From contig DAIDHP010000003.1 of assembly GCA_027459625.1 (NCBI GenBank), forward strand, positions 1 to 64,000: DNA of 64,000 nucleotides, given 5' to 3'. This document shows, in pieces, positions 5,511 through 45,800 of the stretch (position 1 is its first letter; every line of letters starts with the position of its first letter). A program made the position numbers and the translations under genes. Source of the stretch: Chthonomonadales bacterium (GTDB taxonomy: Bacteria > Armatimonadota > Chthonomonadetes > Chthonomonadales > CAJBBX01). A model generated the notes under the pieces. That model did no database searches. It was not told the DNA's origin and saw only the letters and a list, made by a program, of their open reading frames with translations.

Positions 5511-6324
5511 CGAATCATCCGGAATTGCCGTCCGAACCGGAGCCCTATCGTCTGCATGGGCGTTTTTAACCAAAACGGCGGTTATAGCGGAACTGGAGGT
5601 GCGAAAGCTCCGCCACGATCCCACGGAGGTGCTCACACGCGCCGTGCAACCGGCGCTATGGTTATTAATCTTCGGGGAGGTATTCACGCGCGCCCGAGCC
5701 ATTCCAACCGGCGGCATTCGTTATTTGGATTTCATGGCTCCGGGTATTTTGGCTCAGAGCGTGCTCTTCATAGCGATCTTTTACGGGATCGCCATTATTT
5801 GGGAGAGGGATTTGGGCATCGTTCACAAGTTTCTAGCCAGTCCCACTCCGCGTCCCGCAATCGTCCTGGGCAAAGCGGTATCGGCGGGGATCAGAGGGCT
5901 CATGCAGGCGGTTGTGATCTATCTTCTGGCATTGCTTGTGCACGTGAAATTGAACTGGAACCCCTTTGCGCTCTTGGGCGTCGCGCTAACCGTCATTCTG
6001 GGTGCCGCGCTTTTCTCCACTCTATCCCTAATCATTGCGTGCATCGTGAAAACGCGTGAGCGATTCATGGGAATAGGACAGGTGATTACGATGCCCCTTT
6101 TCTTCGCCAGCAATGCGATTTATCCAATTGCGATGATGCCTGACTGGCTGAAGGTGGTATCGCGTGCAAACCCTCTCACCTACGAAGTGGATGCCTTGCG
6201 CTCCCTCATGCTGCAACATGGGGTCGGAGTGTATGGGTGCTGGTTCGATTTCGCCGTGCTCATTGTCTCGGTAGTTATTTTGGTGTCGATCGGTGCGAAG
6301 CTTTATCCGCGAGTTGTGAACTGA
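5467..6324 (+). CDS. ABC-2 type permease, DrrB type
   Basis: A 285-residue membrane protein with about six hydrophobic segments. It has the ABC-2 hallmarks: an N-terminal amphipathic stretch (EVLTRAVQPALWLLIFGEVF), SPTPRPAIVLGKAVSAGIRGLMQ in the cytoplasmic loop and the late segment PLFFASNAIYPIAMMPDWLKVVSRANPLTYEVDALR. GTG at 5467 is chosen because AGGAGGGA lies 6 nt upstream, inside the end of the ATPase gene. With the ATPase it forms an inner-membrane exporter. An intergenic stretch of 186 bp follows, to a convergent gene. Confidence 0.9.
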   Translation: MIPQERGEMRGASGSESSGIAVRTGALSSAWAFLTKTAVIAELEVRKLRHDPTEVLTRAVQPALWLLIFGEVFTRARAIPTGGIRYLDFMAPGILAQSVLFIAIFYGIAIIWERDLGIVHKFLASPTPRPAIVLGKAVSAGIRGLMQAVVIYLLALLVHVKLNWNPFALLGVALTVILGAALFSTLSLIIACIVKTRERFMGIGQVITMPLFFASNAIYPIAMMPDWLKVVSRANPLTYEVDALRSLMLQHGVGVYGCWFDFAVLIVSVVILVSIGAKLYPRVVN

Positions 6325-6510
6325 AAAGGACGATGAATGCGCTAAGTGAGTGAGAATAATGAATTAGGGAGGAATTTGCGTCTTCCTTGATTCCTGGGTA
6401 ATGGCAAAGTTCGTGAAAAAGGAGCTTGTATCGCACATTTCATGCGTTGAAATATTCCTTAAAGACGAATTTTGCAATTACCTGTTTTTTTTGTTTAAGG
6501 TGGAAGCCTT

Positions 6511-7653
6511 TTAGGGATCTATCCTGTAGATATGCACCTGATAGGGAGTGAAGCTATCCTGGAAAGTTCCTTGCCGGACCTCAATGGTTCGGTTTTCGTT
6601 TAATACGGTCAACTGAGTACTTGAGAGGGGCGCCGGGATATGGAACGTTGCGGTCGTGTCACCATCCCTCATTCCAATGGCGAACAGATAAATGGCTCCC
6701 TTGTACTCACGCACAAGCATGGAGATGGGAACTCCTTCGTTTGAGGTGGACACCGTGACATTCCTCCTGGATGATGGGCTTTGAAGGATGGGGTTCATGG
6801 CTTGAATTTCCGAGTTCAGCTTGGTAACCGTCTTCAGCATCTCCGGTTCATCAAGCAAAGCGTGTTCATCGAATTTAGGCTTGAACTGGTGCACGAAATA
6901 GATCAGCCCTTTCGCCCCGTGGGTGATTGCCATCCAAACCTCGGAACGCACCTCATCGGGGGTCGCCATGCCGTTTCCGTCGATATTCGTGCACTCGATG
7001 CAGCACCAAAGAGGTTTTTTCCCTGCTGTCCACTCCTTTAACCGTTCCAAGCCCTTCGCTATCAGCCACATTTTTTTCAATCCCTCTGACGGTCCGAATT
7101 GGGCGATTGGGTAGATGTCAAAGGAGATGATGTCGCCTCCCTTCACATAGGTGAGATAGTCTGAGAGTTTTGCCCCCGTGCCTCTTCCCACCCATTGATC
7201 GTTCGCCACCCCCTGCCCGAGATTGAGCATGCTGGGACGGGAGGGATCGTTGGAATGGATTTTCCTGTAAATATCCACCACTTTTTCCGGGGGAACGCAA
7301 GGACCGTATTCCCCTTGCGGCAATGGTTGTGCGTTATCAGGTTCGTCTTGCTGCATCCAACCGAAGATGGTGGGGTCTTGCAAATGCTTCAATGCGATAT
7401 CATTTTGCTCGCAAATAACCCTCATTCCCGCCTTCTTCACAGCTGAAAGCTGCGCTTCCGTTGGGCCTTGCCACAAACCTACATACAGGTTAAATCCGGC
7501 TTGTTGATATTCGGGAGCCAAGACTGGGTTTTGAAGCCATACGGCGATGGGGAAGGGGGTTGTGGCAAGGGATTGTTCGGACATGGCAAAGGCGTTACCC
7601 ATTGCGCAGGCGATAAGGACAGGGGCTAAAAGCAGGATTGCGCGATGCATCAT
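6511..7653 (-). CDS. Secreted TIM-barrel (glycoside-hydrolase-like) protein
   Basis: A 380-residue protein with a signal peptide (AILLLAPVLIACAMGNAFA) and a body resembling clan GH-A barrels: FNLYVGLWQGPTEAQL, GWMQQDEPDNAQP (an acid-rich motif at the place of a catalytic acid), DIYPIAQ and the late GAKGLIYFVHQF. A short beta-domain follows (about residues 300-380). I do not recognise an exact CAZy family. The start at 7653 has GGAGG about 10 nt upstream; a second ATG follows at once. It probably acts on a plant or microbial polysaccharide outside the inner membrane. It stands alone and converges with the ABC permease gene. Confidence 0.7.
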   Translation of the reverse strand: MMHRAILLLAPVLIACAMGNAFAMSEQSLATTPFPIAVWLQNPVLAPEYQQAGFNLYVGLWQGPTEAQLSAVKKAGMRVICEQNDIALKHLQDPTIFGWMQQDEPDNAQPLPQGEYGPCVPPEKVVDIYRKIHSNDPSRPSMLNLGQGVANDQWVGRGTGAKLSDYLTYVKGGDIISFDIYPIAQFGPSEGLKKMWLIAKGLERLKEWTAGKKPLWCCIECTNIDGNGMATPDEVRSEVWMAITHGAKGLIYFVHQFKPKFDEHALLDEPEMLKTVTKLNSEIQAMNPILQSPSSRRNVTVSTSNEGVPISMLVREYKGAIYLFAIGMRDGDTTATFHIPAPLSSTQLTVLNENRTIEVRQGTFQDSFTPYQVHIYRIDP

Positions 7654-7781
7654 ATCGATTGCCCTCCGAAACTATCGTTGTAAAAAGGCGCAAATCACCC
7701 TCTTTGAATGATTCGCGCCCAATAAAACCGATTCAAGGAAGCATATGATCGGAATTTAAAAAGCCGATCCCCTCACAGAGA

Positions 7782-8306
7782 TTACTGATGCACGATGGTG
7801 TTTTCCGAAGAGAGACGGTCCACATTAAGACCGATTGGAAGAATCGGATATGTCTCCTCGTCAGGCAAATGCAATTGATTGGAGGTCGCCGCTAAAACAT
7901 CCAACGCTTCAATAATCTTGTTCAACAATTCGGGATCCATCTCCTTGATGCAATCCGAGAGGTGCGCCAGGCGTTCCGAATGAAGTTGGGACGCCGCCTC
8001 TCTGGATCGTTCCGTTAGCGTCAGGCGGACCGCTCTTCTGTCGTAAGGATCCGGTTTTCTCTCGACCAAACCCTGTCTAACCAGTCGTTCGACTAATCGA
8101 GACGCGCTCGGCAGAGCTACGCCCAAGGCTTGGGAGATGTCAACTAACTTACTTCCCTCTCTTTCAATGACAAGCTGCAGGCATTTGAACTGCATCATTG
8201 GAAGCTTTGCCATGGATGGAGGGGGGGGCACACTGGTGATCACGTTTCTCATGACCAGTGTGAGGGATCGTCTTAAATGCTCGATTTGTTCTTGTGATGG
8301 TTTCAT
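7782..8306 (-). CDS. MarR family transcriptional regulator
   Basis: A regulator of about 174 residues. Its winged helix reads LVDISQALGVALPSASRLVERLVRQGLVERKPDPYDRRAVRLTLTERSREAA, with the DRR wing. ATG 8306 is preferred because AAGAG precedes it, but ATG 8324 is also possible and adds six residues. The gene is divergent from the His-rich protein gene at 8531. The 200-bp gap between them contains two inverted repeats that could be its operators. The effector and regulon are unknown. Confidence 0.85.
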   Translation of the reverse strand: MKPSQEQIEHLRRSLTLVMRNVITSVPPPPSMAKLPMMQFKCLQLVIEREGSKLVDISQALGVALPSASRLVERLVRQGLVERKPDPYDRRAVRLTLTERSREAASQLHSERLAHLSDCIKEMDPELLNKIIEALDVLAATSNQLHLPDEETYPILPIGLNVDRLSSENTIVHQ

Positions 8307-32573: not shown

Positions 32574-33518
32574 ATGTCTGCGGATAATAACTCGTCAAGC
32601 GACGGATCGATCTCACGTTTGACACGACGTGAGTTTCTTCAGGAGGTTTCCAGCACGGCTTTAGCGCTTGGCGCAGTCGGACTGGCGGGAACCTCCGCCT
32701 TTGGCAAGGAGAATAAGATGGCAAACGACGGACCGAAAAAAGGCGTGCTTTACGATATGCTTCCCTCCAAACTCAGCATGGAGGATCGCTTCAAGTTGGC
32801 GAAGGATGTGGGGTTTGACGGGGTGGAGGCTCCTCCCATATCGGACCCAAATGACGCGGAGAAAATGCGCACTGCGGCGGAGACTGCGGGAATCCCAATT
32901 CACTCCGTGATTTACGGAGGATGGGATCCAACCTTGTCCGATCCGGACCCCGCGAAGGCGGAGCAGAGCCTGAAAAACGCCGAAGCGGCTTTGAACGGCG
33001 CCAAAATCATGGGCGCGGAGACAATGCTATTGGTTCCCGGGGTGGTGAACGCTCAGACCAGATACGTGGACTGTTACAATCGGACGCAGAAGCATGTGCA
33101 TAAGCTCATCCCGTTGGCGGAAAAACTCGGAATCGTTATCTGCATCGAAGAGGTATGGAACAATTTCCTTATGAGTCCGTTGGAATATTGCAGGTATATC
33201 GATGAGTTCAAAAGCCCGTGGGTTCAGGCTTACTTCGATGTGGGGAATGTGGTGCGTTTTGCTTGGCCTCAGGACTGGATTCTCACCGTGGCAAAGCGGA
33301 TTAAGAAGGTTCACCTTAAGGACTTCAAGGGCGGCCCCGGGTTGTGGGGCGACGGGCACTTCTGCCCCCTCTTGGAGGGAAGTATCGACTGGCACGCAGT
33401 TCGCGAGGCTTTCCATACGATTGGCTATAATAGTTTCATGACGACGGAGTTGCAGGGCGGCGATGAAGCCTATCTGCGTGATGTGAGTTCGCGGGTTGAT
33501 AAAATCCTGGCTTCTTAG
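32574..33518 (+). CDS. Sugar phosphate isomerase/epimerase-like TIM barrel, Tat-exported
   Basis: A 314-residue protein. RLTRREFLQEVSSTALALGAVGLAG is a Tat signal. The rest is an AP-endonuclease-2/xylose-isomerase-like barrel: KLAKDVGFDGVEAPP, LGIVICIEEVWNNF (metal-binding Glu), SPWVQAYFDVGNV, RIKKVHLKDF (His metal ligand) and a late FMTTELQGGDE. ATG 32574 has GGAG upstream. It lies 126 bp after the Gfo/Idh gene, and the gap holds the palindromic element. A joint role in periplasmic sugar conversion is inferred; the substrate is unknown. Confidence 0.88.
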   Translation: MSADNNSSSDGSISRLTRREFLQEVSSTALALGAVGLAGTSAFGKENKMANDGPKKGVLYDMLPSKLSMEDRFKLAKDVGFDGVEAPPISDPNDAEKMRTAAETAGIPIHSVIYGGWDPTLSDPDPAKAEQSLKNAEAALNGAKIMGAETMLLVPGVVNAQTRYVDCYNRTQKHVHKLIPLAEKLGIVICIEEVWNNFLMSPLEYCRYIDEFKSPWVQAYFDVGNVVRFAWPQDWILTVAKRIKKVHLKDFKGGPGLWGDGHFCPLLEGSIDWHAVREAFHTIGYNSFMTTELQGGDEAYLRDVSSRVDKILAS

Positions 33519-33544
33519 CGATTTTTCGGAGGAGTGGGGAACGC

Positions 33545-34684
33545 CTATTCCTCCGACGCCACAATGAGGATGTCAATTTTCCGTAATTGGCGCGCCACCT
33601 CATGGATGATGGAGCCGTGCAGGAACTCCTGCCATCTCGTGCTGCGCGAATGTCCCATCACCATTTGAGTGATCTCCTTCTCCTTTGCATAACGGATCAG
33701 TTCCTCCGCCACATCCCCATGCAAGTTAACCACGGGAATGTTCAGACGGTTCGCCAGTTCGAGGTCATTGGATAGAATATTCCGCTCCTCTGTGCCAGGG
33801 GGGCGGCATTCCACATACACCGCCACGATATCCCCTTTGAGCCGCTGAGCTATTCTCCAGCCGCGTCTTATAAGGCGCATGGAGGATCTTGACGGGCTGA
33901 TGCACACCATAATGCGATCATGCGCCGCCCAAGTCTCCTCGATCCTATTGTCTTTACGATACGTGGATAACTGAGTGTCAACTTCATGCGCCGTCTCTCG
34001 AAGCGCAATCTCCCTCAGCGCGTTGAGGTTTCCCTCCCTGAAGAAGTTACGCATCGCGTGATTCACTTTTTCCGCAGGATAAACATCACCTCTTTCCAAG
34101 CGATTGATCAAGGCTTGCGGCGGGATGTCTATCATCATCACCTCGTTCGCCTCTTGAAGAATGCGATCCGGAACGGTCTCCCTTACCCAAACTCCCGTGA
34201 TATCGTGGATCGTGTCGTTAAGGCTTTCAAGATGCTGCACATTCAGTGTGGATAGGACGCTGATTCCCGCATCAAGGAGAACCTCCACATCCTTCCACCT
34301 TTTAGCTCTTTCGGACCCAGGGACGTTTGTATGGGCGAGTTCATCCACGATAACGAGTTGAGGATGCCGAGCCAATATCGCGTCCGTGTCCATCTCCTCG
34401 AAGGTGGTTCCTCGGTATTCCACGACCTTTCTCGGGATGATCTCCAAATCACCGATCTGCTTCTGTGTGCCTTCTCTGCCGTGTGTCTCCACATAACCGA
34501 TCACAACCTCCTCGCCTCGGCTTCGTCTGCGGTTTGCCTCCGCAAGCATTTCGTAGGTTTTGCCAACTCCCGCCGCGAATCCGAGAAATATCTTGTGGTA
34601 GCCGTGGCGTGACTTGCGTTCCGCCTTCATAACCTTGGCGAGTAACTCCTCAGGATCCGGACGTTTTATCTCCTCTTGGCTCAT
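33545..34684 (-). CDS. kdpD: KdpD N-terminal domain as a separate protein (KdpD + USP)
   Basis: A 379-residue protein corresponding only to the cytoplasmic N-terminal half of the KdpD sensor kinase. It has the P-loop GFAAGVGKTYEML, the KdpD blocks VVIGYVETHGR, PQLVIVDELAHTNVPGS and VLSTLNVQHLESLND, then a universal-stress-like domain (DRIMVCISPSRSSMRLIRRGWRIA, later MVMGHSRSTRWQEFLHGSIIHEVARQ). In other bacteria the USP domain of KdpD binds c-di-AMP. No membrane segments or kinase domain follow. Its start overlaps the stop of the response regulator (ATGA), so the two are coupled. It is the last gene of the kdp operon. Confidence 0.92.
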   Translation of the reverse strand: MSQEEIKRPDPEELLAKVMKAERKSRHGYHKIFLGFAAGVGKTYEMLAEANRRRSRGEEVVIGYVETHGREGTQKQIGDLEIIPRKVVEYRGTTFEEMDTDAILARHPQLVIVDELAHTNVPGSERAKRWKDVEVLLDAGISVLSTLNVQHLESLNDTIHDITGVWVRETVPDRILQEANEVMMIDIPPQALINRLERGDVYPAEKVNHAMRNFFREGNLNALREIALRETAHEVDTQLSTYRKDNRIEETWAAHDRIMVCISPSRSSMRLIRRGWRIAQRLKGDIVAVYVECRPPGTEERNILSNDLELANRLNIPVVNLHGDVAEELIRYAKEKEITQMVMGHSRSTRWQEFLHGSIIHEVARQLRKIDILIVASEE

Positions 34685-35454
34685 GGATTTTTCTCAACTC
34701 CCTGACCAGTGGTCGCCGATAGCACCGCATCCACCCATTTGTGCAAATTGGTTGTGAGTTCCGTTACAGTGAGTGTGTCATCGGGGGGGAAAGAGGCGTT
34801 TTGCCAAAGGTAATTCGCCAAAGCCTCCTCCGCCAATCCCTGCCAAAAACGATCCTCGCCAGGCATGTTCTCTCGATCCGAAAGCGCCTTTACAAGCTCG
34901 ATTATGTAATTCGGCAGAATCACTTTGCTTATAATGCTCTCGCCTGCGGGATTGCGTACGATGAATTCGTGTATTAATTGATCGGGTCCACGATTGCACT
35001 CGTTCGGATGCGACAGAATTCTAAAACCGTTAATCGTGGTCATGCCGTATGTTACAGGGGAGTCCAATCCATAGGGTTGATTGCTATCGCCTTGCTGGGT
35101 GATGGATTGCACGGTTTCCCTTAGGGTTTCCATCGTGAAGGGTTTTCGCAGGAAATCCGTTGCGCCCGATTTCATCGCCTCCACAACCAAGTCAATCGTG
35201 CCGAACGCAGTGATCATCACCACTTTTGCGTCCGATTTGCGATCTTTCATCTCTTTAAGCACGGCAAGCCCTTCCAATACCGGCATTCGCTGATCAAGCA
35301 AAACCAGGTCGTAACCGGCGCCGTTTGCGAATTTCTTTAACCCTTCCACCCCGTCCGCTGCGGTATCCACTTCATGACCGACGTGTTGTAACGCCAGCCG
35401 GATTGTCATCCGTATGTTCGTTTCATCATCAATGACCAGTATCCGCGACATCAT
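34681..35454 (-). CDS. Response regulator with unknown C-terminal domain
   Basis: A 257-residue protein. The receiver domain spans residues 3-120: ILVIDDETNIR (acidic pocket), the phosphorylated Asp54 in LVLLDQRMP, ITAFG (Thr) and FLRKPFT (Lys). It resembles NtrC-type receivers. The C-terminal 125 residues (YGMTTINGFRILSHPNECN through LHKWVDAVLSAT) show no OmpR-type winged helix as in KdpE, and no other output domain that I recognise. The start is ATG 35454 or 35451, overlapping the kinase gene end by about 25 bp. Its position between kinase and KdpD fragment marks it as the kdp regulator, though DNA binding is not evident. Confidence 0.85.
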   Translation of the reverse strand: MMSRILVIDDETNIRMTIRLALQHVGHEVDTAADGVEGLKKFANGAGYDLVLLDQRMPVLEGLAVLKEMKDRKSDAKVVMITAFGTIDLVVEAMKSGATDFLRKPFTMETLRETVQSITQQGDSNQPYGLDSPVTYGMTTINGFRILSHPNECNRGPDQLIHEFIVRNPAGESIISKVILPNYIIELVKALSDRENMPGEDRFWQGLAEEALANYLWQNASFPPDDTLTVTELTTNLHKWVDAVLSATTGQGVEKNP

Positions 35455-37300
35455 CCATATCCTTTCTGTCCGCAAGGAGGGGGAGCGATATTTCGAAAAC
35501 ACTGCCCTTGCCTAATTCGCTTTTGACCGTTATTTCCCCGTTGTGCGCCATTACTATCGTCTTAACAATTGACAATCCAAGCCCCGCTCCTCCCTTGGTG
35601 GCGCTTGGCACTTGTACAAATCGATCGAAAATCCTCGAAAGATACTCTTTTGGAATGCCGCACCCGTTATCCGTCACCATTAATGACATATGCGAGTTTC
35701 GCCTGTACGCCTCGACTTTGACGACGCTGTTGGCGGGGGAGTAGCGTATGGCGTTTGTTAATAAGTTCACGAGAGCTCTCGATATCTGCGTTCGATCCGC
35801 ACGGACATATGTCAAATCATTGTCATAATGCAATTCCAAATGAATGTTTTTCATATCCGCCTGGGTGCGTACCGAATCGATGGCTGAGGTTGCAATTTCA
35901 GAGGGGGAAACAATCTCGAATCTTGGCGGGGTGATTCCGGATTCGAGCCGTGAAAGATCAAGCAACTCTTTCATCATCCGGTCCAGTCTGTCCAAATCCT
36001 CTCGCTGAGCGCGAATGAGTTGTTGCTGTTCCGAATTCAATTCACCCACCGCTCCCTCCTGAAGCAGTTGAACTGAAAGCAATAAAGAAGTAACCGGAGT
36101 GCGTAATTCATGCGAAGCCACTCCGATGAACTCCGTTTTCAATTTGTCCAGTTCCCTTAGATGGGTGACATCCTCCAAGACAGCCGCCGCTCCAAGCAGA
36201 ATTCCCGTCTCATCTCTCATCGGCGTGGCACGCAGACGATAGGTTCTTCGAGTGTTTGAGACTTGTAGAGGAATGTACGCCTCCTCCCCCTCCGGAGCCG
36301 AAATCCGTTGATTATGTATCACTCCATCGATGGCATCGGATATCCGCACATCCATTGTTAAGCCCTTTACGGATAAACCGACGGCATGCTGCGCTGGACC
36401 GAATAGTCCCTCCGCCGCATGATTCAAATGAACGATATGCCCCGTTGAATCGGTGACGATCACCGGGTCATATAGACTATCAATTGCGGCGTCCGACATT
36501 CTTTCCGCTCGGCGTAGTTTCTCCGTATCCACCTGTTTCGCCTGCCGTAATTGCAACGCCATTGTGTTGAAGGAGTTTGCAAGGACGCCGATTTCATCTT
36601 TTCTACGCAACTCAATCCTTTGGTTCAGATGTCCACGCCCGATCTCCTCCGCCTGACGCGCCAAAGTGTGCAAAGGCATAAGGGTCAGGTTAATGATTTT
36701 TATTGCAAAAAGAATGGAGATTAAAAATGCTAAAAGAGTGACTCCCGCCCCGGTCCACGATGTCCATTCGGCTTGCCGTTCAGCTTCCTTATCGGCTCGG
36801 AGAATTGCACGTTGGTTCAGATCGAGAATGGCTTGAGCAAGCTGCTTAATACCGATGAATTCCGGCTCGAGTACCCCAAAATAGTATCTCTTGGCATTTA
36901 ATCCAGTCATGCGAGAGGAGGAGAAAAGAAGCTTACGGATATTTTGCGTGTAAGTCGTGAATTGTGAGTGTATCGATGAAGCCAATCTCCCTTCGCCTTT
37001 TTCCGTGATGTTATGGGCCTCAATATCATAGGCTTTTTCAAAAAGAGGATAGTTCACCTGATATTGATTCTTCGCCATTTGCACCTTCCCTGCAAGATAG
37101 AAAGCGGCGGCGCTATCCTGTCGTTCCAATGTTTCCTTCATGTTTTGCGCGGCGATGACACTTTTGTAATTATTCTTCAAGATTCTATCTATGGAGTGAC
37201 CGAGATAAAACAAACTGATCACCCCTCCCGTCATCACGACGAGCATGAGAAATGCCAATATAAGATGACTTCCTAATAATTCCGTCCGGATGCTACGCAT
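35429..37300 (-). CDS. Membrane sensor histidine kinase (HAMP-PAS-HisKA-HATPase)
   Basis: A 623-residue kinase. One membrane helix is at about 10-35. A periplasmic helical sensor of about 140 residues follows, then a second helix at about 185-207. HAMP covers about 208-260 (LARQAEEIGRGHLNQRIELRRKDEIGVLANSFNTMA) and PAS about 268-385. The phospho-His lies in GVASHELRTPVTSLLLS. ATPase boxes are N (LLTNAIRYSP), G1 (VTDNGCGIP), F (FDRFVQV) and G2 (GGAGLGLSIV). It replaces the kinase half of KdpD but has its own sensor. It follows kdpC by 12 bp and is co-transcribed. Confidence 0.93.
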   Translation of the reverse strand: MRSIRTELLGSHLILAFLMLVVMTGGVISLFYLGHSIDRILKNNYKSVIAAQNMKETLERQDSAAAFYLAGKVQMAKNQYQVNYPLFEKAYDIEAHNITEKGEGRLASSIHSQFTTYTQNIRKLLFSSSRMTGLNAKRYYFGVLEPEFIGIKQLAQAILDLNQRAILRADKEAERQAEWTSWTGAGVTLLAFLISILFAIKIINLTLMPLHTLARQAEEIGRGHLNQRIELRRKDEIGVLANSFNTMALQLRQAKQVDTEKLRRAERMSDAAIDSLYDPVIVTDSTGHIVHLNHAAEGLFGPAQHAVGLSVKGLTMDVRISDAIDGVIHNQRISAPEGEEAYIPLQVSNTRRTYRLRATPMRDETGILLGAAAVLEDVTHLRELDKLKTEFIGVASHELRTPVTSLLLSVQLLQEGAVGELNSEQQQLIRAQREDLDRLDRMMKELLDLSRLESGITPPRFEIVSPSEIATSAIDSVRTQADMKNIHLELHYDNDLTYVRADRTQISRALVNLLTNAIRYSPANSVVKVEAYRRNSHMSLMVTDNGCGIPKEYLSRIFDRFVQVPSATKGGAGLGLSIVKTIVMAHNGEITVKSELGKGSVFEISLPLLADRKDMDDVADTGH

Positions 37301-37312
37301 GGAAACCTCGTT

Positions 37313-37900
37313 TTATTTATGCGTATTGGCGGTGAGTTCATCCAACGCCATATTAAGCCTGACAACATTCACCCTAGGCTCCCCAAGAATTCCAAACTGC
37401 CTTCCATCAGTATACCGCTTCACCAGGTTGAGAACCTTTTGAGCAGGCAGGGAACGCGCCTGCGCCACTCTCCCGGCCTGCAATAGCGCGTTTTCAGGGC
37501 TTATGTCCGGATCGAGTCCGCTTGCGGATGCGGTGACGGCATCCGGCGGTACGAGGGTGTGGGGGGGAAGTCCATTCTCCTGGCGATATTCCACCACTCT
37601 TCGCGCCACATTTGCGACAAACAATTTATTTGTTGGTCCCAGATTTGATCCTCCGGATTGCATGGGATCATAACCATTCCCCGCCGCAGACGGGCGCGGA
37701 TGGAAGTATTTAGCGGATTTGAAATCCTGTCCGATAAGATAGGACCCCCTGACCACACCGTTTTGACGTATTAGACTGCCATTCGCCTGTTTGGGGAATA
37801 GCAACTGCGCGATTCCAGTGATCGCCGTTGGGTACGCCAGTCCAGTGATGATGAAGAACGCCAGGGTTATAATCAATGCGGGTCTTAGCTGTCTAATCAT
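37313..37900 (-). CDS. kdpC: K+-transporting ATPase subunit KdpC
   Basis: A 195-residue protein with one N-terminal membrane helix (ALIITLAFFIITGLAYPTAITGIAQLLFP). Conserved blocks are SYLIGQDFKSAKYFHPRPSA, then VTASASGLDPDISPENALLQAGRVAQARSLP. This is the standard KdpC length and order. KdpC stabilises nucleotide binding in the KdpFABC complex of the inner membrane. The gap to kdpB is 15 bp, within the operon. Confidence 0.97.
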   Translation of the reverse strand: MIRQLRPALIITLAFFIITGLAYPTAITGIAQLLFPKQANGSLIRQNGVVRGSYLIGQDFKSAKYFHPRPSAAGNGYDPMQSGGSNLGPTNKLFVANVARRVVEYRQENGLPPHTLVPPDAVTASASGLDPDISPENALLQAGRVAQARSLPAQKVLNLVKRYTDGRQFGILGEPRVNVVRLNMALDELTANTHK

Positions 37901-37915
37901 TTTGATTGCCTCCGT

Positions 37916-40036
37916 CTATACCAAGTGTAAAGCGGTTATGATACGGTCTATAATCCAGATTCCGGGAAACGGCGCGATTAATCCGCCAACCCCGTAGATG
38001 AGCAGATTGCGTCTCAGGGACGCCGTCGCGCTCATGGGTTTGTAGGCGACACCTCTTAACGCCAGAGGAATGAGCATGATGATGATAAGCGCATTGAATA
38101 TCACCGCTGAAAGTATCGCGGAGTCCGGGCTGTGCAGATGCATTACATTCAACGCCCCCAGAGCCGGATAGGTTACCGCGAACATTGCCGGAATGATCGC
38201 AAAATACTTCGCTACGTCATTCGCGATGCTAAAAGTCGTTAGTGCGCCGCGAGTCATGAGCAATTGTTTGCCGATCTCCACGATTTCAATGAGTTTGGTG
38301 GGATTGCTGTCCAAATCCACCATGTTGCCAGCTTCTTTCGCCGCCTGAGTTCCCGTATTCATGGCGACACCTACATCCGCCTGCGCCAGCGCCGGAGCGT
38401 CATTCGTGCCGTCCCCTGTCATTGCGACTAATTTGCCGCCGGCTTGCTCCGCCTTGATGAGCCTCATTTTGGCTTCCGGAGTCGCCTCTGCGAGAAAGTC
38501 ATCCACTCCCGCCTCCTCGGCAATGCTCGCGGCGGTTAGGGGATTGTCGCCTGTGATCATAACCGTTTTAATGCCCATGCTTCGCAATTGATCGAATCTC
38601 TGTTTTATCCCTCCTTTGACGATATCCTTTAAGTATATGACTCCCAAGGGCTGACAGTTAAGAGACACGGCTAGAGGGGTTCCGCCGGCGGATGATATCT
38701 TCCTTATGATTTCATCCAACTCACTCGGCACGGCGCCACCGGCTTCAAGGATGTATTTTTTGATTGACTCGCCGGATCCCTTTCGGATTTGCATTCCATT
38801 CAAATTCACTCCGCTCATGCGCGTCTGTGCGGTGAAGGGAATGAACTCCGCATCCCTGTCATGTAGTTCACGCCCTCGCAACCCGTATTTCTCCTTTGCC
38901 AGCACCACGATGCTCCTGCCCTCTGGTGTTTCGTCTGCGAGAGAGGAGAGTTGCGCCGCATTCGCGAGTTCATTCACCTCCACGCCCTGCAAGGGGATGA
39001 ACTCCACGGCTTGCCTGTTGCCGAGGGTGATGGTTCCCGTTTTATCCAAAAGTAGGGTGTTGACATCGCCCGCCGCCTCGACAGCTTTCCCGGACATGGC
39101 TAAAACGTTATGCTGCATCACCCGATCCATCCCGGCTATTCCTATTGCGGATAGTAATCCTCCAATGGTGGTGGGAATTAAACAAACCAGCAATGCAACC
39201 AAAACGGTGATGGACGGTGGCGAACCGGCGTTCGCCGATCGCACGCTATACACCGCAAACGGATAGAGCGTGAAAACGGCGAGTAGGAAGATGATGGTCA
39301 AGCCGGCCAACAGGATGCTCAGGGCGATTTCATTCGGGGTTTTTTGACGCTGCGCTCCTTCCACCAAGGCGATCATGCGATCGATAAATGTCTCCCCCGG
39401 ATTCGCGGTGATACGTATGATGATGCGATCCGAGAGCACCTTGGTGCCGCCTGTCACAGCGCTGCGATCTCCACCGCTCTCTCGAATAACCGGGGCGGAT
39501 TCCCCTGTGATCGCCGACTCATCCACGGAGGCGATTCCTTCGATCACTTCTCCATCGCATGGAATGATGTCATTCGCTTCGCATACCACGGTGTCACCTT
39601 TACGAAGACTGGTTGCGGGAATGATCTCTTCCCGTTTTCCGTCGATTAACTTTCTCGCATGGGTTTCGGTCTTGCTCTTACGGAGAGAATCCGCCTGGGC
39701 TTTGCCTCTTCCCTCCGCCATCGCCTCCGCGAAATTCGCAAACAGGCAGGTAAACCACAACCAAAGCGTCACCTGACCGCTGAAAAGCGTATTGTGATTG
39801 TGAGTGACAGCCTCCTTTAGGAAGAGATAAGTGGTAAGTGCGCTGCCGATCTCGACTACGAACATCACCGGATTTCGAGCCATTATGCGCGGATCCAATT
39901 TCCGCACCGACTCCATTAATGCACTCTTCAAGATAACGGGATCAAAAAGCGACTTGGGAGCGTTTTTTGGTCTTTTGTACCCGCTGGATTTTTCGGGTGT
40001 ATGTTCAGTCTCGGTCAGAGATGTCGTTGTTGTCAT
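37916..40036 (-). CDS. kdpB: K+-transporting P-type ATPase subunit KdpB
   Basis: A 706-residue P-type ATPase. The actuator motif is [10 protein letters not shown]. The phosphorylation site is [14 protein letters not shown], and the hinge is [33 protein letters not shown]. The nucleotide-binding region has [13 protein letters not shown]-like residues. These are the KdpB hallmarks; the subunit hydrolyses ATP to drive K+ uptake through KdpA. ATG 40036 has CAGGGAGA upstream and lies 14 bp after kdpA. Length is normal. Confidence 0.98.
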
Positions 40037-40050
40037 CTATATTCTCCCTG

Positions 40051-41838
40051 TTATATCAATTTGCCCAAGATCATATGAAACTGTTCAACGATGGGTCCGA
40101 GAGCCAATGCCGGAATGAAAGTCAACGCTCCGACGATCACTACAACCCCAACCAAGAGGTAAGCGAACGTGGCGGAGTCCGTCGGAAAAGTTCCAAGGGA
40201 TAGAGGCGTGTATCTTTTTTTCACCAAGCTTCCAGCCAGAGCTAGGAGCGGTATGATCATGAAAAACCGCCCTATGAGCATTGCCAATCCGATCGTGAAA
40301 TTGTAATATGGTGTGTTGGCGTCCAGCCCTGCGAAAGCGGAGCCATTATTGCCCGTGGCGGAGGAGTAGGCGTACAGTATCTCCGTGAAGCCGTGAGGAC
40401 CGGCGTTTTCCACGTTTTTGTAAGTAGCGCCAATGTATTGATGATTAACGTTATTCCTGTTCCATTCGTTTTCTCGAGATAGATTCAGATTGGCTCCAAT
40501 GGACGTGAAAATGAGAATGTTCGCAGCGAGTATCAAAACCGCAAGCATCGCCATCTTGACTTCATACTGTTCAATTTTCTTTCCGAGATACTCCGGCGTT
40601 CTGCCCACCATTAACCCGGCAATAAACACGGCGATGATGGCGTACATCAGCATTCCGTACAATCCCGACCCCACGCCTCCGAAAATCACTTCGCCTGAGA
40701 GAATATCGAGCAGGGGAACCATTCCTCCTATGGGGGTGTAACTGTCGTGCATGGAGTTCACCGCGCCGCAGGATGTGTCGGTGGTGGCGGTGGCGAATAG
40801 TGCGCTGTTCACGATGCCGAAACGCACCTCCTTGCCCTCCATGTTTCCGCCGGGTTGAAGAGCGGATGCTTGTAGCATCACCCCCAAACGCGTGATGTTC
40901 GGGTTGCCTTTCATCTCGGAATGATAGCAAACGAAGACTCCGCATAAAAACAGTATGCTCATAGCGGCGAAAATCGCCCATCCTTGGCGCGTATTTCCCG
41001 CCATCTTACCGAACGTATACGTCAACGCCGCCGCGATGAGAAGAATGGCAAGGATTTCCAAGAAGTTTGAAAGCGGGGTTGGATTTTCATAGGGATGAGA
41101 GGAATTCGCATTGAAGAACCCACCTCCGTTTGTGCCCAACTCCTTGATCGCCTCCTGAGACGCCACGGGACCCTGGGGAATCGTTTGAGTCTGTCCGCTA
41201 ATTGTTTGTGCGTGAACGTAGGGATTGAAATTCTGAGGAACCCCTTGCCAGACTAAAATCAGACTAAAGATGATACTTATGGGTAAAAGTATGTAGAGAA
41301 TCCCTCGGGTCATGTCCACCCAGAAATTACCCAGTCCACTGGCGTTATGCCTGACGATCCCTCTAATGAAGGCTATGGCGATAGCCATCCCAGTGGCGGC
41401 CGACATGAAATTATGACCCGCCAGCGCGAACATATTGGTGAAGTAGCTCAAAGTGGCTTCAGGTATATAGCTTTGCCAGTTCGTATTGGTTGCAAAGGAT
41501 GTCGCCGTGTTGAACGCCAGATCCGGCGGAACCCGCCTGCCAGTGAAGTGCTGCGGGTTCCATGGTGTAATTCCTTGGATTCGCATGAGCATGTAGGTGA
41601 TAAGGGCTCCGACAACTGTGAACGCCAGCGTGGCGAATAGATAGTTCATCCACCGCATATCCTCATTTTCGTTCACTCCGCTAATGCGATACAGAAACTT
41701 TTCAACTGGTTTGAGGATTGGATCCAAAAACGTCCTATCTCCCGCATATACTCGCGCCATATAACCGCCGATCGGTTTTACGAGCGCAAGCAGAACGCCG
41801 AACAAGAGAAGGATTTGTATTACTCCATTGAGAGTCAT
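40051..41838 (-). CDS. kdpA: K+-transporting ATPase subunit KdpA
   Basis: A 595-residue channel-like subunit with about ten membrane helices. Selectivity-filter-like segments include FNTATSFATNTNWQSY, ELGTNGGGFFNANSSHPYENPTPLSNF, TDTSCGAVNSMHDSYTPIGG and YAYSSATGNNGSAFAGL. It selects and conducts K+ in KdpFABC. ATG 41838 has AAAGGAT upstream; upstream codons in the open frame are not conserved. Somewhat longer than the E. coli protein (557 residues). Confidence 0.97.
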   Translation of the reverse strand: MTLNGVIQILLLFGVLLALVKPIGGYMARVYAGDRTFLDPILKPVEKFLYRISGVNENEDMRWMNYLFATLAFTVVGALITYMLMRIQGITPWNPQHFTGRRVPPDLAFNTATSFATNTNWQSYIPEATLSYFTNMFALAGHNFMSAATGMAIAIAFIRGIVRHNASGLGNFWVDMTRGILYILLPISIIFSLILVWQGVPQNFNPYVHAQTISGQTQTIPQGPVASQEAIKELGTNGGGFFNANSSHPYENPTPLSNFLEILAILLIAAALTYTFGKMAGNTRQGWAIFAAMSILFLCGVFVCYHSEMKGNPNITRLGVMLQASALQPGGNMEGKEVRFGIVNSALFATATTDTSCGAVNSMHDSYTPIGGMVPLLDILSGEVIFGGVGSGLYGMLMYAIIAVFIAGLMVGRTPEYLGKKIEQYEVKMAMLAVLILAANILIFTSIGANLNLSRENEWNRNNVNHQYIGATYKNVENAGPHGFTEILYAYSSATGNNGSAFAGLDANTPYYNFTIGLAMLIGRFFMIIPLLALAGSLVKKRYTPLSLGTFPTDSATFAYLLVGVVVIVGALTFIPALALGPIVEQFHMILGKLI

Positions 41839-41928
41839 TGGCTTATCCTTTATGGAAACTGTAATGATATCTTGAGAATGGTATGTATCGAATAATATCG
41901 TTAACCATTTCATCCTTGAACATCAATT

Positions 41929-42012
41929 TTAGAACTTCTCCGGTTTTAACAGGGCGTAAAGCAAATATCCTAAAAGTCCCATGGATATCACCGCCGATAA
42001 TAAAATGTCCAT
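41929..42012 (-). CDS. kdpF: KdpF small membrane subunit
   Basis: A 27-residue single-helix peptide: MDILLSAVISMGLL then GYLLYALLKPEKF. The end LLYALLKPEKF is the KdpF hallmark. KdpF stabilises the KdpABC complex between KdpA and KdpB. ATG 42012 has AAAGGA upstream. It sits directly before kdpA, as usual. Confidence 0.92.
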   Translation of the reverse strand: MDILLSAVISMGLLGYLLYALLKPEKF

Positions 42013-42029
42013 ATTACCGTCCTTTTCTC

Positions 42030-42110
42030 TTAGAGCTTGTCGCATCCGCGAATGAATAACACGCAAATAGCAAAGAAGACAATCAATACTGCAACATAGA
42101 AGATATCCAT
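42030..42110 (-). CDS. 26-residue membrane peptide at head of kdp operon
   Basis: ATG 42110 opens a single-helix peptide of 26 residues (MDIFYVAV, a hydrophobic core, and the end FIRGCDKL). GCAGGGGG lies 6 nt upstream, an excellent ribosome site. It ends 17 bp before kdpF. The shape, a short helix with a basic, Cys-containing C-terminus, differs from KdpF, which is also present. Similar tiny ORFs upstream of kdp genes are known to me only as hypothetical proteins. It is probably a Kdp-associated small protein. Alternatively it is a leader peptide, since it follows an intrinsic terminator. Confidence 0.65.
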   Translation of the reverse strand: MDIFYVAVLIVFFAICVLFIRGCDKL

Positions 42111-42127
42111 GGTTTTCCCCCTGCGAC

Positions 42128-42181
42128 AAAAAAAGGAGCTGCAACACAAGAGATTCGTCGAACCCCTTCAGTTGCAGCCCC
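42128..42181 (-). terminator. Intrinsic terminator (attenuator) in kdp leader
   Basis: On the minus strand GGGGCTGCAAC (42181-42171) pairs with GTTGCAGCTCC (42145-42135), with one G-U pair and a 25-nt loop. Seven U follow (42134-42128). It lies only about 20 nt before the first kdp start codon and downstream of the kdp promoter. Confidence 0.8.
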
Positions 42182-42340
42182 CTTTACGACCTGTCTCGGT
42201 TTATGTCAAGCCGACACCTTTCGTCCTGGTAACTGACGCCATTTATTTAAAGTTATATCAATCGATTGTAATGTAAGGTAATCGCACTTTCCGATTTCGG
42301 ATGTCGATTTTGAACGCTGCAATCACCTCGTTTTACCAGC
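42182..42340 (-). ncRNA. kdp mRNA leader, candidate cis-regulatory RNA
   Basis: The sequence between the predicted transcription start (about 42340) and the terminator is about 160 nt with no ORF of note. It contains local stems such as CGUC-AGUUACCAG-GACG and UGUC-GGCU-UGACA. No known riboswitch consensus was matched by eye. Confidence 0.4.
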
Positions 42341-42346
42341 GAATAT

Positions 42347-42375
42347 ATACTATCGCAAACCTGAGAGTTTGTCAA
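42347..42375 (-). promoter_or_regulatory. Predicted kdp promoter
   Basis: On the minus strand TTGACA (42375-42370), 17 nt and TAGTAT (42352-42347). The -35 box lies inside the last codons of the DUF2294 gene. Spacing is ideal. Confidence 0.65.
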
Positions 42376-42748
42376 TATCTCCACGCAACATTTTTTTCTC
42401 CACATCCTTTTCGAATATGAATATCTCTACCTGTTCGGCTCTCTCCACATCGACGTCGTAGTAACTGCAGATGACTTTGACTTGCACAATATCGGCTATG
42501 ATCCCTTCGATCTCCGTGTGGTTAATGGATCTTAGCTCTCTTCTGGAGCTTTGGATGAGTTTGAGACCATCCTGGGTTGCAGCGAGTCTCTTTTCGATAG
42601 GGGTGAATATTTCCGACGAACGAACTATAGCCATGTCGCCGAGAATGAAGGCGCGCACCTGCCCCGCGCCGCGACCCATCTGCTCCCGCTGGAACTTGAC
42701 CGCTGCGTTTGCAATCTCAGCTTCCAACGCCCCTTTCGTGATTTGCAT
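42350..42748 (-). CDS. DUF2294 family protein
   Basis: A 132-residue protein matching DUF2294: it opens TKGALEAEIANAAVKFQREQMGRGAGQVRAFILGDMAIVRS, then FTPIEKRLAATQDGLKLIQSSRRELR, and later a strand block VQVKVICSYYDVDVERAEQVEIFIFEKD. The family is common in bacteria and uncharacterised; some members lie next to ion transporters. ATG 42748 has GGAG upstream. It directly precedes the kdp operon on the same strand, and the kdp promoter overlaps its end. Confidence 0.85.
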   Translation of the reverse strand: MQITKGALEAEIANAAVKFQREQMGRGAGQVRAFILGDMAIVRSSEIFTPIEKRLAATQDGLKLIQSSRRELRSINHTEIEGIIADIVQVKVICSYYDVDVERAEQVEIFIFEKDVEKKMLRGDIDKLSGLR

Positions 42749-42820
42749 GAAACAAACTCCAACCCGATTTTTTGTAGTATACCTTTGCAGAGGGTATTAT
42801 GATCAAAAAGGGGATATGAG

Positions 42821-45800
42821 ATGAAAACCAAAGGAATCAGCCGCCGGGAATTTGTGGAGTTGATGGCGGGTTTGATTGCCATGAATATGGTCACTGAATC
42901 CGATGCAATGCAAAGGACATTTGGCACGGTTCGTTCTCATTTTGATGATAGCGATATTGCGGCTCGATTACGGCGTCGTTACAGCACCGAGCCAGCTATG
43001 CTACATTTTACCTCTGATGGTTTGATCCTTTCCAATCAAACCAGCGATACGATTTTAACACTCGCAGCCTCCATGCCGGTATTCGATTTCGGCGATTTCA
43101 CAATTGGAGGTGCGAGCACCTCCCGGATCAAATGGAAAGAGCGGGAGATTGGCGACACGGTTCGTTGGACAAGAGAGCTTCATGCATCCCCCCCTCATCC
43201 CGCGATTATTCACGAAATCCTGGAGTATCACCGCGATTCGTCATTGATTTACAGATGCGCCGAGATACAACTCGAAGGGGAGCGCGCACTTCTTCATACT
43301 GTTACGATAGATGAAGTAATCGCCAAGGACGCCTCTCTGACCCATAATCCAGGCATTCAGAGCCATCCTATATTAGGGGATTCTTTTTTTTGCGGCGTGG
43401 AGTATCCCGTCGCCCCCACAACTCAGGTGAACGCTAACCATGTCACGCTTAGCAATGCACCAGGCATTTGGCTGGAGCCGGGGCGGGTGTATCGAACCCG
43501 ATCGGCAGTCTATGGGGTGACGCAGCCCGGGAATTCCCGCCAAGCATTCGAAGAGTACATCTCCGCTCTGCGCCCCGACCCGATTAATATCCATTGGAAC
43601 TATAATAGCTGGTGGACCTCGCCTGTGCCCTATACGGAATCCGATATCCTGAAAATCATAAAGGAGTTCAAAGAGAACCTGTACATTCCTTATCACGAAA
43701 TGACGGATACTTTTTGCATTGATATGGGCTGGACCAATAGCGAATCCATATGGCAAATCAATCCATCCTTGTTTCCCAAGGGTTTCACCGGTTTGGAGAA
43801 GGCGTTGAAGGAAATCCATTCAAAGTTGGGCTTATGGATATCGCCAAGCGCTGTTTACGGTCAGGCTCTAAATCTCGTATGGGCGAAGCAAGCCGGTTAC
43901 GAAGCGGATCAACAAAAATGCTGTCTCGGCGGACCGCGTTATCAGGCGGCGTTTAAAATGGCGCTGACTTACATCGTCGGAAACTTCGATCTTGGGCATG
44001 TGAAGTTTGACGGATATGTCGAGACTTGCAACGATACAAATCATGGTCATCAACCCGGCTTGATGTCGGCGGAACCGATCGCCGAAGGAATCATTGACGT
44101 CTTCCTCACTCTGCACGTTATGAAGCATGATAGTATCTGGATGGAGCCAACCTGTTTCGGATTTGATCCCAGTCCGTGGTGGGTGATGTATTGTAACTCC
44201 GTTATAGGATGTTTTGGAGCGGATTCGCCATATGGTCAGTCGCCATGTCCGAATTATCGTGAAAGTTATACAACTGCTCGCGATAACTACAACCTGAAGG
44301 GCGATGCGCATATTCAGATTCCCATCGCCGCAATCGACGATCTCGGGATTGACCATCAAACGGAGGAGCCCTTCCAAAACGATGCGGTGACCACCGTCCT
44401 GCGCGGCAACCAGTTTCTTCCTCTCTATGTCAATCCCTCTTTTATGTCGCCAAGGAGATGGGAGTTTCTCGCCGCTTTGTTGAAGTGGGCGAGACGTAAT
44501 ACGAGGGTTTTGAGCGAAACAAAGCCGATCTATCCCGCTTCCTGGAAAGGCGGCGAGTTGGCTCCATGGGTCTTTTCCTCTTCGGTATTCCCAAGGGAAC
44601 CTTATGGTTACGCGCATTGGAAGGGGGATAAAGGGTTGCTATGTCTTCGAAATCCATGGATTGACTCCGTCACGTTGAGCCTTTCTCCGAGCAAGGATAT
44701 GGGAGCGCAGAACGGTTTGGAGGATCTAACCGTCTCCCTTATCTATCCGGAAACGCGAATCGTAGCCACCGGTGTTAAATCGGAAACCCCGTTGGACCTG
44801 ACTGTCGCACCTTATGAAACGGCTCTGTATGAGATTAAGCGACAATCGCACAAATCCAAAGTGACACGTCCGGCATGGATCGCCCCGCAAATGGAGGTGA
44901 AAGTGAATGCGGTTCATCTTCAAATCAGCAATAAGGGCGAGGAATATGGAGCGGATTACACGCGACTGCTGCCCGATAAAGGCGATCATTTGAAGGTAGC
45001 GATGAATGGAATTATCCGATTAGCCGATTCCGGAAGTTACGAACTCTTGGCGCTGGCGGAAGACAGTAAGCCAGTGGAAATCCCCGTCTATGATTTTCAA
45101 GTCAATGGCGCATCCGTGGAACCCACCATTATTAGTTCGGAGACAGGATGGTCCGCCGGGGGCGGAGCGGACCAGGAGCACTGGGTTTGGCTAATCCTCC
45201 CCCTTGAATTACACGTTAGTGATATCAACGCATCCGTTATCCTCGCCGGGGCGACCGGCAGGCTTTCAATCTGGGTGGTGAGGCGTGACAAGATTCCTTG
45301 GGAGCCGTTGAAAAAAGTGACCGGCTCCATCATCCCACCACCCGAAGAGAGATATATAGGCGCTGTCAATCTATGCCGGTACTTATCACTGAATGATAAT
45401 CTCCCCGTCGTGCAGGGAGAATCACCGATAAAGCGTATCAACGGAATCTATTTGGACACCCTGAAACCTGTCTCCGCCACTCAAGGGTGGGGAACTCTGC
45501 ATTTCAATCAAAGCGTGACCGGCAGCCCGCTATGCATCGACGGTGTGATCCACCTCAGAGGCTTGGGCACACACGCCCTCTCAAGAATCATCTACGATCT
45601 TGACGGGAAATACTCCAAGTTTGAAACTTGGGCGGGTCCCGATCAAGCCACAATGGCGACAATCACCATGGAGGTGCGTGTGGATGGAGAAGTCGCATGG
45701 AAATCCGGTTTGCTAAGCCATGACAGCCCGGCTCAAAGGGTTGTTGTGGATGTGCGAGGAGCCAGGAGATTGGAGTTATTCGTGGGGGATGGCGGTGACG

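Follow-up and report, generated by a model that had tools for sequence, protein, structure and literature searches.

Control of bacterial potassium uptake is usually described either as KdpDE acting on DNA or as c-di-AMP acting on riboswitches and transporters. The 64,000-nucleotide stretch of Chthonomonadales bacterium DNA analyzed here (assembly GCA_027459625.1, contig DAIDHP010000003.1, positions 1 to 64,000; hereafter, the window) contains a kdp pump operon with a regulatory cassette that includes neither a recognizable KdpE nor a known riboswitch, raising the question of how uptake is controlled. Our tentative answer, which we regard as quite possible, is a potassium-uptake control cassette with two arms, one a brake on the pump and the other a kinase-regulator pair acting at a terminator in the operon leader. 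In the first arm, a soluble atypical serine kinase, KdpD-N, would phosphorylate the serine in the TGES motif of KdpB when potassium is plentiful, the signal probably being c-di-AMP. In the second arm, a membrane histidine kinase would hand phosphate to a response regulator, and the output domain of the latter (hereafter RRct) would act on the leader RNA rather than on promoter DNA, stabilizing an antiterminator hairpin, with transcription continuing past the terminator into kdpF. We infer the phosphotransfer from kinase to regulator, the c-di-AMP signal in this organism and the direct contact between regulator and RNA. The operon is encoded on the minus strand and reads, from 5' to 3', small open reading frame (ORF), kdpF, kdpA, kdpB, kdpC, kinase, regulator, KdpD-N; the features are as follows.

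42350-42748, minus strand: MpsC-family gene upstream of the leader, a recurrent neighbor (PF10057, E 1e-29)
42176-42234, minus strand: conserved leader hairpin, putative antiterminator (models R1 and R2, covariation)
42128-42186, minus strand: intrinsic terminator overlapping the 3' strand of the leader hairpin (sequence and structure reading)
42030-42110, minus strand: hydrophobic ORF of 26 codons, without a Pfam family (read from the sequence)
41929-42012, minus strand: kdpF, 27 amino acids (PF09604, E 4e-10)
40051-41913, minus strand: kdpA (profile matches)
37916-40036, minus strand: kdpB, with a TGES motif containing the regulatory serine (profile match and sequence)
37313-37900, minus strand: kdpC (profile matches)
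35429-37300, minus strand: membrane histidine kinase, HAMP-PAS-HisKA-HATPase_c, 623 amino acids, PnpS/WalK-like (Pfam and NCBIfam)
34681-35454, minus strand: response regulator, receiver plus RRct (PF00072 only; start codon inferred; conserved in 15 aligned relatives)
34684-35052, minus strand: RRct, the C-terminal output domain of the regulator, without a known family (Pfam and PDB comparisons, predicted fold)
33545-34684, minus strand: KdpD-N, a free KdpD plus Usp protein of 379 amino acids (PF02702, Usp, NF038185 over the whole length, catalytic residues)

Upstream of kdpF, positions 42234-42176 form an imperfect hairpin of 59 nucleotides, the 3' strand of which also serves as the 5' arm of a strong terminator (42186-42128), an arrangement typical of antiterminators; a simple scan of the same strand from 33300 to 42900 for terminator-like stems yielded two weak five-pair stems only, with fewer sites in total than in shuffled sequences. 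Eleven leader seeds were found by eye and with patterns, one of which gave 10 matches (three of these being a single coding-region sequence in three loci) compared with about one in shuffled sequence. A terminator made with the hairpin 3' strand follows all 11 seeds and the eight copies inspected in print, one of which is itself a seed. In model R2 (20 copies), 16 of the 20 pairs vary on both sides, and the covariation score is 0.46; shuffled alignments score 0.14, none of 500 reaching the observed value, and slid structures do not exceed 0.11; the R2 alignment was fitted to the structure, and the first alignment, A3 (MAFFT), gives 0.435 against 0.14. Given this covariation and the overlap with the terminator, the leader sequence is very probably that of a transcription attenuator. 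As modeled, it is a single hairpin with a loop of variable length and no junction (a second hairpin was not searched for). Comparison with Rfam gave nothing at the gathering level for the window and eight relatives, and nothing credible at a permissive level for the window leader and 12 leader loci; known riboswitches, including the c-di-AMP one (ydaO), were rejected for want of an Rfam covariance-model match.

The regulator gene is listed from GTG 35502, its most likely start being ATG 35454, and ends at 34681. The receiver domain of the encoded protein is complete, with D8, D9, D53, T81 and K103 invariant in 15 aligned sequences. Beyond PF00072, the regulator has no Pfam match, and none was obtained for any of the 15 C-terminal domains, winged-helix, helix-turn-helix and ANTAR families included; RRct had no match among PDB sequences either (best E 0.87). 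The AlphaFold2 model of RRct (mean pLDDT 87) is a sheet followed by helices, for which a Foldseek search of the PDB returned nothing with E < 0.001; among the best 1000 Foldseek chains, that of DUF1488 (2gpi) is the only one above Z 5 in VIA-align (Z 6.2, 84 residues, rmsd 3.5, 8% identity; the next scores 3.5). The predicted fold of RRct is similar to that of DUF1488, with no sequence-profile match; by the alignment tool's own warning, such a likeness is a hint and not a family assignment. A function for DUF1488 was not found. The model of the full-length regulator gave structural matches mainly over the receiver. As judged from these comparisons, the regulator is without a recognized DNA-binding domain, and its conserved acidic C-terminal domain, of an unlisted family, is new. 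In the kdp operon of genome G007, we also observed a diverged regulator with a C-terminal part that is RRct-like by eye and has no Pfam match past the receiver, and in genome G032, from which KdpD-N and KdpA matches are missing, one kinase gene is flanked by two RRct regulators (locus L121, contig C53).

RRct was found in 47 of the 251 genomes (own and relatives) that were searched for it. Over 291 genomes of the phylum Armatimonadota, R2 detected 20 leader copies in 18 genomes at E <= 0.01, many of them members of the model. These copies precede kdp (14), KimA (2), kinase-regulator-KimA (3, with the G008 leader joined to its operon by inference across a contig end) and antiporter-kinase-regulator-KdpD-N (1). 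RRct was detected in 17 of the 18 leader genomes; the remaining one, G014, is 64% complete, with a kdp contig that stops within the kinase gene, and it is also the only one with a leader among the 34 KdpA-bearing genomes without detected RRct. The association of leader and regulator has a Fisher p of about 1e-10 on the counts of an earlier leader search, a value that ignores shared descent. In G034, a kdp operon with a full-length KdpD has no leader match and the KimA-kinase-regulator operon has one; in G114, the leader precedes a kdp operon with no kinase-regulator pair within 3.7 kb after kdpC, the system being located on another contig. By eye, divergent leader-like hairpins with terminators are present in three RRct-bearing genomes (G016, G021 and G028), where the MpsC gene also has a weak match in front of it; such a weak match before MpsC, accompanied by a terminator, is seen in genus g12. 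The missing DNA-binding domain together with this co-occurrence makes action of the regulator on the leader a real, if not yet the probable, prospect.

KdpD-N contains complete PF02702 (E 5e-95) and Usp (E 4e-12) domains and stops after Usp, with no transmembrane part or histidine kinase on the chain. Its residues 7-377 match residues 2-372 of the 373 of NF038185 (short non-kinase KdpD; E 1.7e-125), with a score of 419 bits that falls below the NCBI curated cut-off of 550, so that the protein is not counted in this NCBI family. Of the catalytic features known from the serine kinase of E. coli, it keeps Walker A (G-x5-GKT), Walker B (DE) and R190. The TGES motif is present in KdpB of the window, and the genome encodes one diadenylate cyclase. 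W39 of the adenine-binding pair is replaced by Y; it is also other than W in nine of the 10 full-length KdpD rows of our alignment, and therefore is not a strict marker of the serine kinase. According to published work (PMC11018627), the serine-kinase domain of KdpD phosphorylates S162 of KdpB in E. coli, and the short KdpD of Deinococcus geothermalis acts as a serine kinase, stimulated by c-di-AMP, that shuts down KdpB. A free KdpD-N is thus already known and not new; given the intact residues and this published biochemistry, the window protein probably acts as a KdpB kinase too.

The distribution of catalytic residues among relatives fits such an activity. For these counts, rows are distinct KdpD-N sequences, with exact duplicates removed and a few representing one gene cut differently, and the group labels are our own. 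D109 and E110 are kept in all 24 rows of the mostly kdp-linked group, and the Walker B E110 is also kept in 5/5 short KdpD without the regulator and 10/10 full-length KdpD. Among the rows of the Fimbriimonadia triad, E110 is kept in five of 15 (nine have D and one P); among the regulator-pair rows it is kept in none of seven, all with N and all with T38 replaced by A. Taken together, the 22 Fimbriimonadia rows, from genomes in which kdp does not adjoin the cassette, include five with E110 kept and seven with T38 lost. As read from the residues, this pattern suits a kinase with KdpB as its substrate and a second KdpD-N role where KdpB is not the partner. The 22 rows form a single tree branch (support 100/100), so the loss of catalytic residues may correspond to one or few evolutionary events. 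As a separate observation, KdpD-N in L126, L127, L134, L135, L137 and L138 has GKA and DN in place of GKT and DE, next to a diverged RRct regulator and with no adjacent kinase gene; judging by these replacements, the six are probable pseudo-kinases.

The earlier note on this DNA, made from the letters alone, had described a KdpD sensor split into kinase, regulator and N-domain. The frames and domain matches bear out three separate genes, tightly coupled as it had stated, with a 26-bp overlap of kinase and regulator (from ATG 35454 to the kinase stop ending at 35429) and a shared ATGA between regulator and KdpD-N, and HAMP, PAS, HisKA and HATPase_c were all matched in the kinase for which it had proposed a sensor of its own. 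A full-length kdpD elsewhere in the genome, which it had named as a contrary outcome, was not found: the only PF02702 protein in the assembly (96.55% complete, 114 contigs) is KdpD-N of the window. The picture of a split KdpD does not hold. The best NCBIfam scores of the kinase are PnpS (266 bits) and WalK (262 bits), compared with 118 bits for KdpD, which covers the kinase core only; by its sequence, the kinase is PnpS/WalK-like and not the missing C-terminal half of KdpD. In a tree that sampled Armatimonadota and E. coli only, the 10 full-length KdpD rows, that of E. coli included, form one clade (100/100) apart from most short forms, which argues that KdpD-N of the window is not a fresh truncation. 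Fission of a KdpD gene was rejected on both grounds.

The note had also called for the gene order to be sought in relatives, and here it is kept: in 42 of the 47 regulator-bearing genomes, KdpD-N comes immediately after the regulator, the exceptions being G007, G008, G011, G032 and G034. The transporters in the same cluster are kdp in 14 of the 47, KimA in 17 (two with both) and a PF00999 antiporter in one (G022); none was seen in 17 genomes, in at least three of which the view is cut by contig ends. KimA of L037 matches the solved KimA 6s3k over residues 11-621 (E 7e-122), and the other KimA calls are by similarity to this protein. The orders include kinase-regulator-KdpD-N-KimA, kdpABC-KimA-kinase-regulator-KdpD-N, kdpABC-kinase-regulator-KdpD-N-MpsC-KimA, kinase-KimA-regulator-KdpD-N and kinase-regulator-KimA. 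In G022, the gene of the PF00999 Na+/H+-exchanger family (L150:3328-4905) has a leader copy on one side and the kinase gene on the other. No KdpA match was obtained in nine of the 47 genomes (G008, G011, G032, G041, G101, G147, G178, G193 and G241), six of which still encode KdpD-N. Six genomes (G041, G101, G178, G193, G215 and G221) have regulator and KdpD-N with no kinase gene next to them, making the regulator the closest genetic partner of KdpD-N; a kinase without KdpD-N in its operon is found in five cases (G008, G011, G032, G034 and the KimA operon of G007).

Other systems share parts of this arrangement. The D. geothermalis short KdpD (PMC11018627) resembles KdpD-N in its two domains, Walker motifs, R190, the TGES of KdpB, a gene in the pump operon and a diadenylate cyclase in the genome; unlike it, the window protein has Y for W39, its gene follows those of a kinase and of a regulator whose output domain is new, and the Fimbriimonadia members of the window lineage reside with KimA and mostly are without the catalytic glutamate. 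In Acidobacteriota and Chloroflexota, a KdpD split into a KdpD/Usp chain and a TM/GAF/kinase chain is described (PMC11018627), so that, as here, the serine-kinase part and the histidine kinase are on separate chains; in contrast to these split forms, our kinase contains HAMP and PAS domains, and its scores are those of PnpS/WalK rather than of the C-terminal half of KdpD. The kdp operon of D. radiodurans (PMC5716572) likewise combines a free KdpD-N with a separate kinase and regulator, which, unlike in the window, are in a divergent operon, the regulator binding DNA. A separate kinase is accordingly known in another form. The second arm of the proposed cassette has its parallels in RNA-based control. 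With ANTAR response regulators and BglG/SacY-type antiterminators, the window system shares a regulator without a DNA-binding domain and a leader hairpin in competition with an intrinsic terminator; it differs in having no ANTAR match, another predicted fold and one long imperfect hairpin with a variable loop. The target leader of ANTAR regulators contains two conserved hexaloop hairpins.

Several observations weigh against the proposed two-arm cassette. RRct is acidic: the median pI of 48 distinct domains is 4.67, and 47 of them fall under 6, compared with a pI of 8.7 for the part of E. coli KdpE that binds DNA. Leader and kinase-regulator genes are mostly in one operon, so common descent explains part of their association. 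The link is not strict either: among 33 other RRct genomes, R2 matches are strong only in G002, G011 and G022 and weak in G025, G143 and G215; no strong leader match was obtained in any of the 21 Fimbriimonadia genomes that encode the regulator, so the regulator, which these bacteria keep, must act somehow without the leader; and in G024 (87% complete), a divergent leader-like hairpin with a terminator, visible by eye, precedes kdp with RRct undetected. As for the signal of the first arm, the c-di-AMP motif SxS-x20-xxAxY is present in KdpD-N of the window, and it is complete in only 2/24 kdp-linked, 0/15 Fimbriimonadia triad and 0/7 regulator-pair rows. A looser motif (the serine and tyrosine tested in S. 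aureus) is found in 11/21 kdp-linked rows (three cut rows dropped from the 24), 1/15 triad rows and 3/7 regulator-pair rows. With so few complete rows, the motif was rejected as a family trait; its rarity across groups limits c-di-AMP control, plausible from the sequence, to the window KdpD-N and some relatives.

The main rival explanation is that the leader is a riboswitch sensing a small ligand or ion and that the regulator works by protein contact, most simply with KdpD-N, or with the transporter. We consider this possible, if somewhat doubtful: it would accommodate the acidity of RRct, the six genomes that pair regulator and KdpD-N without an adjacent kinase and the Fimbriimonadia that keep the regulator without the leader, and the kdp genes of Bacillus thuringiensis are reported to be under c-di-AMP riboswitches (PMC6488665). 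It sits poorly with a leader that is a single imperfect hairpin without a junction, that matches no Rfam family and that is not found, save in one broken assembly, in KdpA genomes without the regulator. This plain-hairpin design and the restriction of the leader to genomes with the system speak for action of the regulator on the leader; the acidic domain and the leaderless Fimbriimonadia speak for the rival.

Ordinary two-component control, in which RRct would be an unrecognized DNA-binding domain, the regulator would activate the kdp promoter and the leader would set the basal level, has a precedent in the separate regulator of D. radiodurans, which binds the kdp promoter (PMC5716572). We regard it as unlikely for RRct, which has no helix-turn-helix or other DNA-binding family match in Pfam, is predicted to fold as a sheet followed by helices, with DUF1488 as the nearest structure, and is acidic. 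Still more improbable, in our view, is the suggestion of the earlier note that KdpD-N, as a soluble sensor of c-di-AMP, docks on the kinase and modulates it. The tight coupling of the genes and the Usp domain with a c-di-AMP motif in the window copy are compatible with docking, but KdpD-N is retained without an adjacent kinase in six genomes, the kinase is retained without an operon KdpD-N in the five cases listed above, and the published partner of the short KdpD is KdpB (PMC11018627).

In the open-access papers searched, we found no literature on this regulator domain, the leader or an operon of KdpD-N and KimA; within that scope, the novelty appears to lie in the response regulator with RRct, in its use with KdpFABC, KimA and an antiporter alike, and in the leader RNA. 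The cassette suggests a novel form of control over potassium uptake, in which a single kinase-regulator module is tied to three cation transporters that are unrelated to one another. An output domain for response regulators and a leader RNA, both new, would be added, each of a size suited to in vitro tests. It also offers a natural experiment on the KdpD domain, the catalytic residues of which are kept beside KdpB and mostly lost where the module serves KimA or stands alone. On a wider and rather unlikely reading, RRct would be the first of a new class of RNA-binding output domains of response regulators, with the phosphorylated regulator binding a dedicated antiterminator hairpin in a two-component antitermination regulon that comprises KdpFABC, KimA, the antiporter and its own kinase gene; in Fimbriimonadia, the system would have moved to KimA and lost the leader, with KdpD-N partly a pseudo-kinase in a purely regulatory role.

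Several minor observations concern the surroundings of the cassette. An apparent fusion of kinase and regulator (an 870-residue frame in L040; also L111 and L163) reads through an ambiguous position X and was not used as evidence. Small ORFs similar to that at 42110-42030 apparently also precede kdpF in L145, L146, L160 and L184. In L233 (G114, contig C31), a second kdpA (6127-7902) directly follows kdpA-kdpB-kdpC. Finally, genes of the MpsC family (PF10057) are repeatedly found next to the cassette, in L031, L119, L120, L122, L123, L145, L146, L160, L233, L234, L236 and several loci of Fimbriimonadia.

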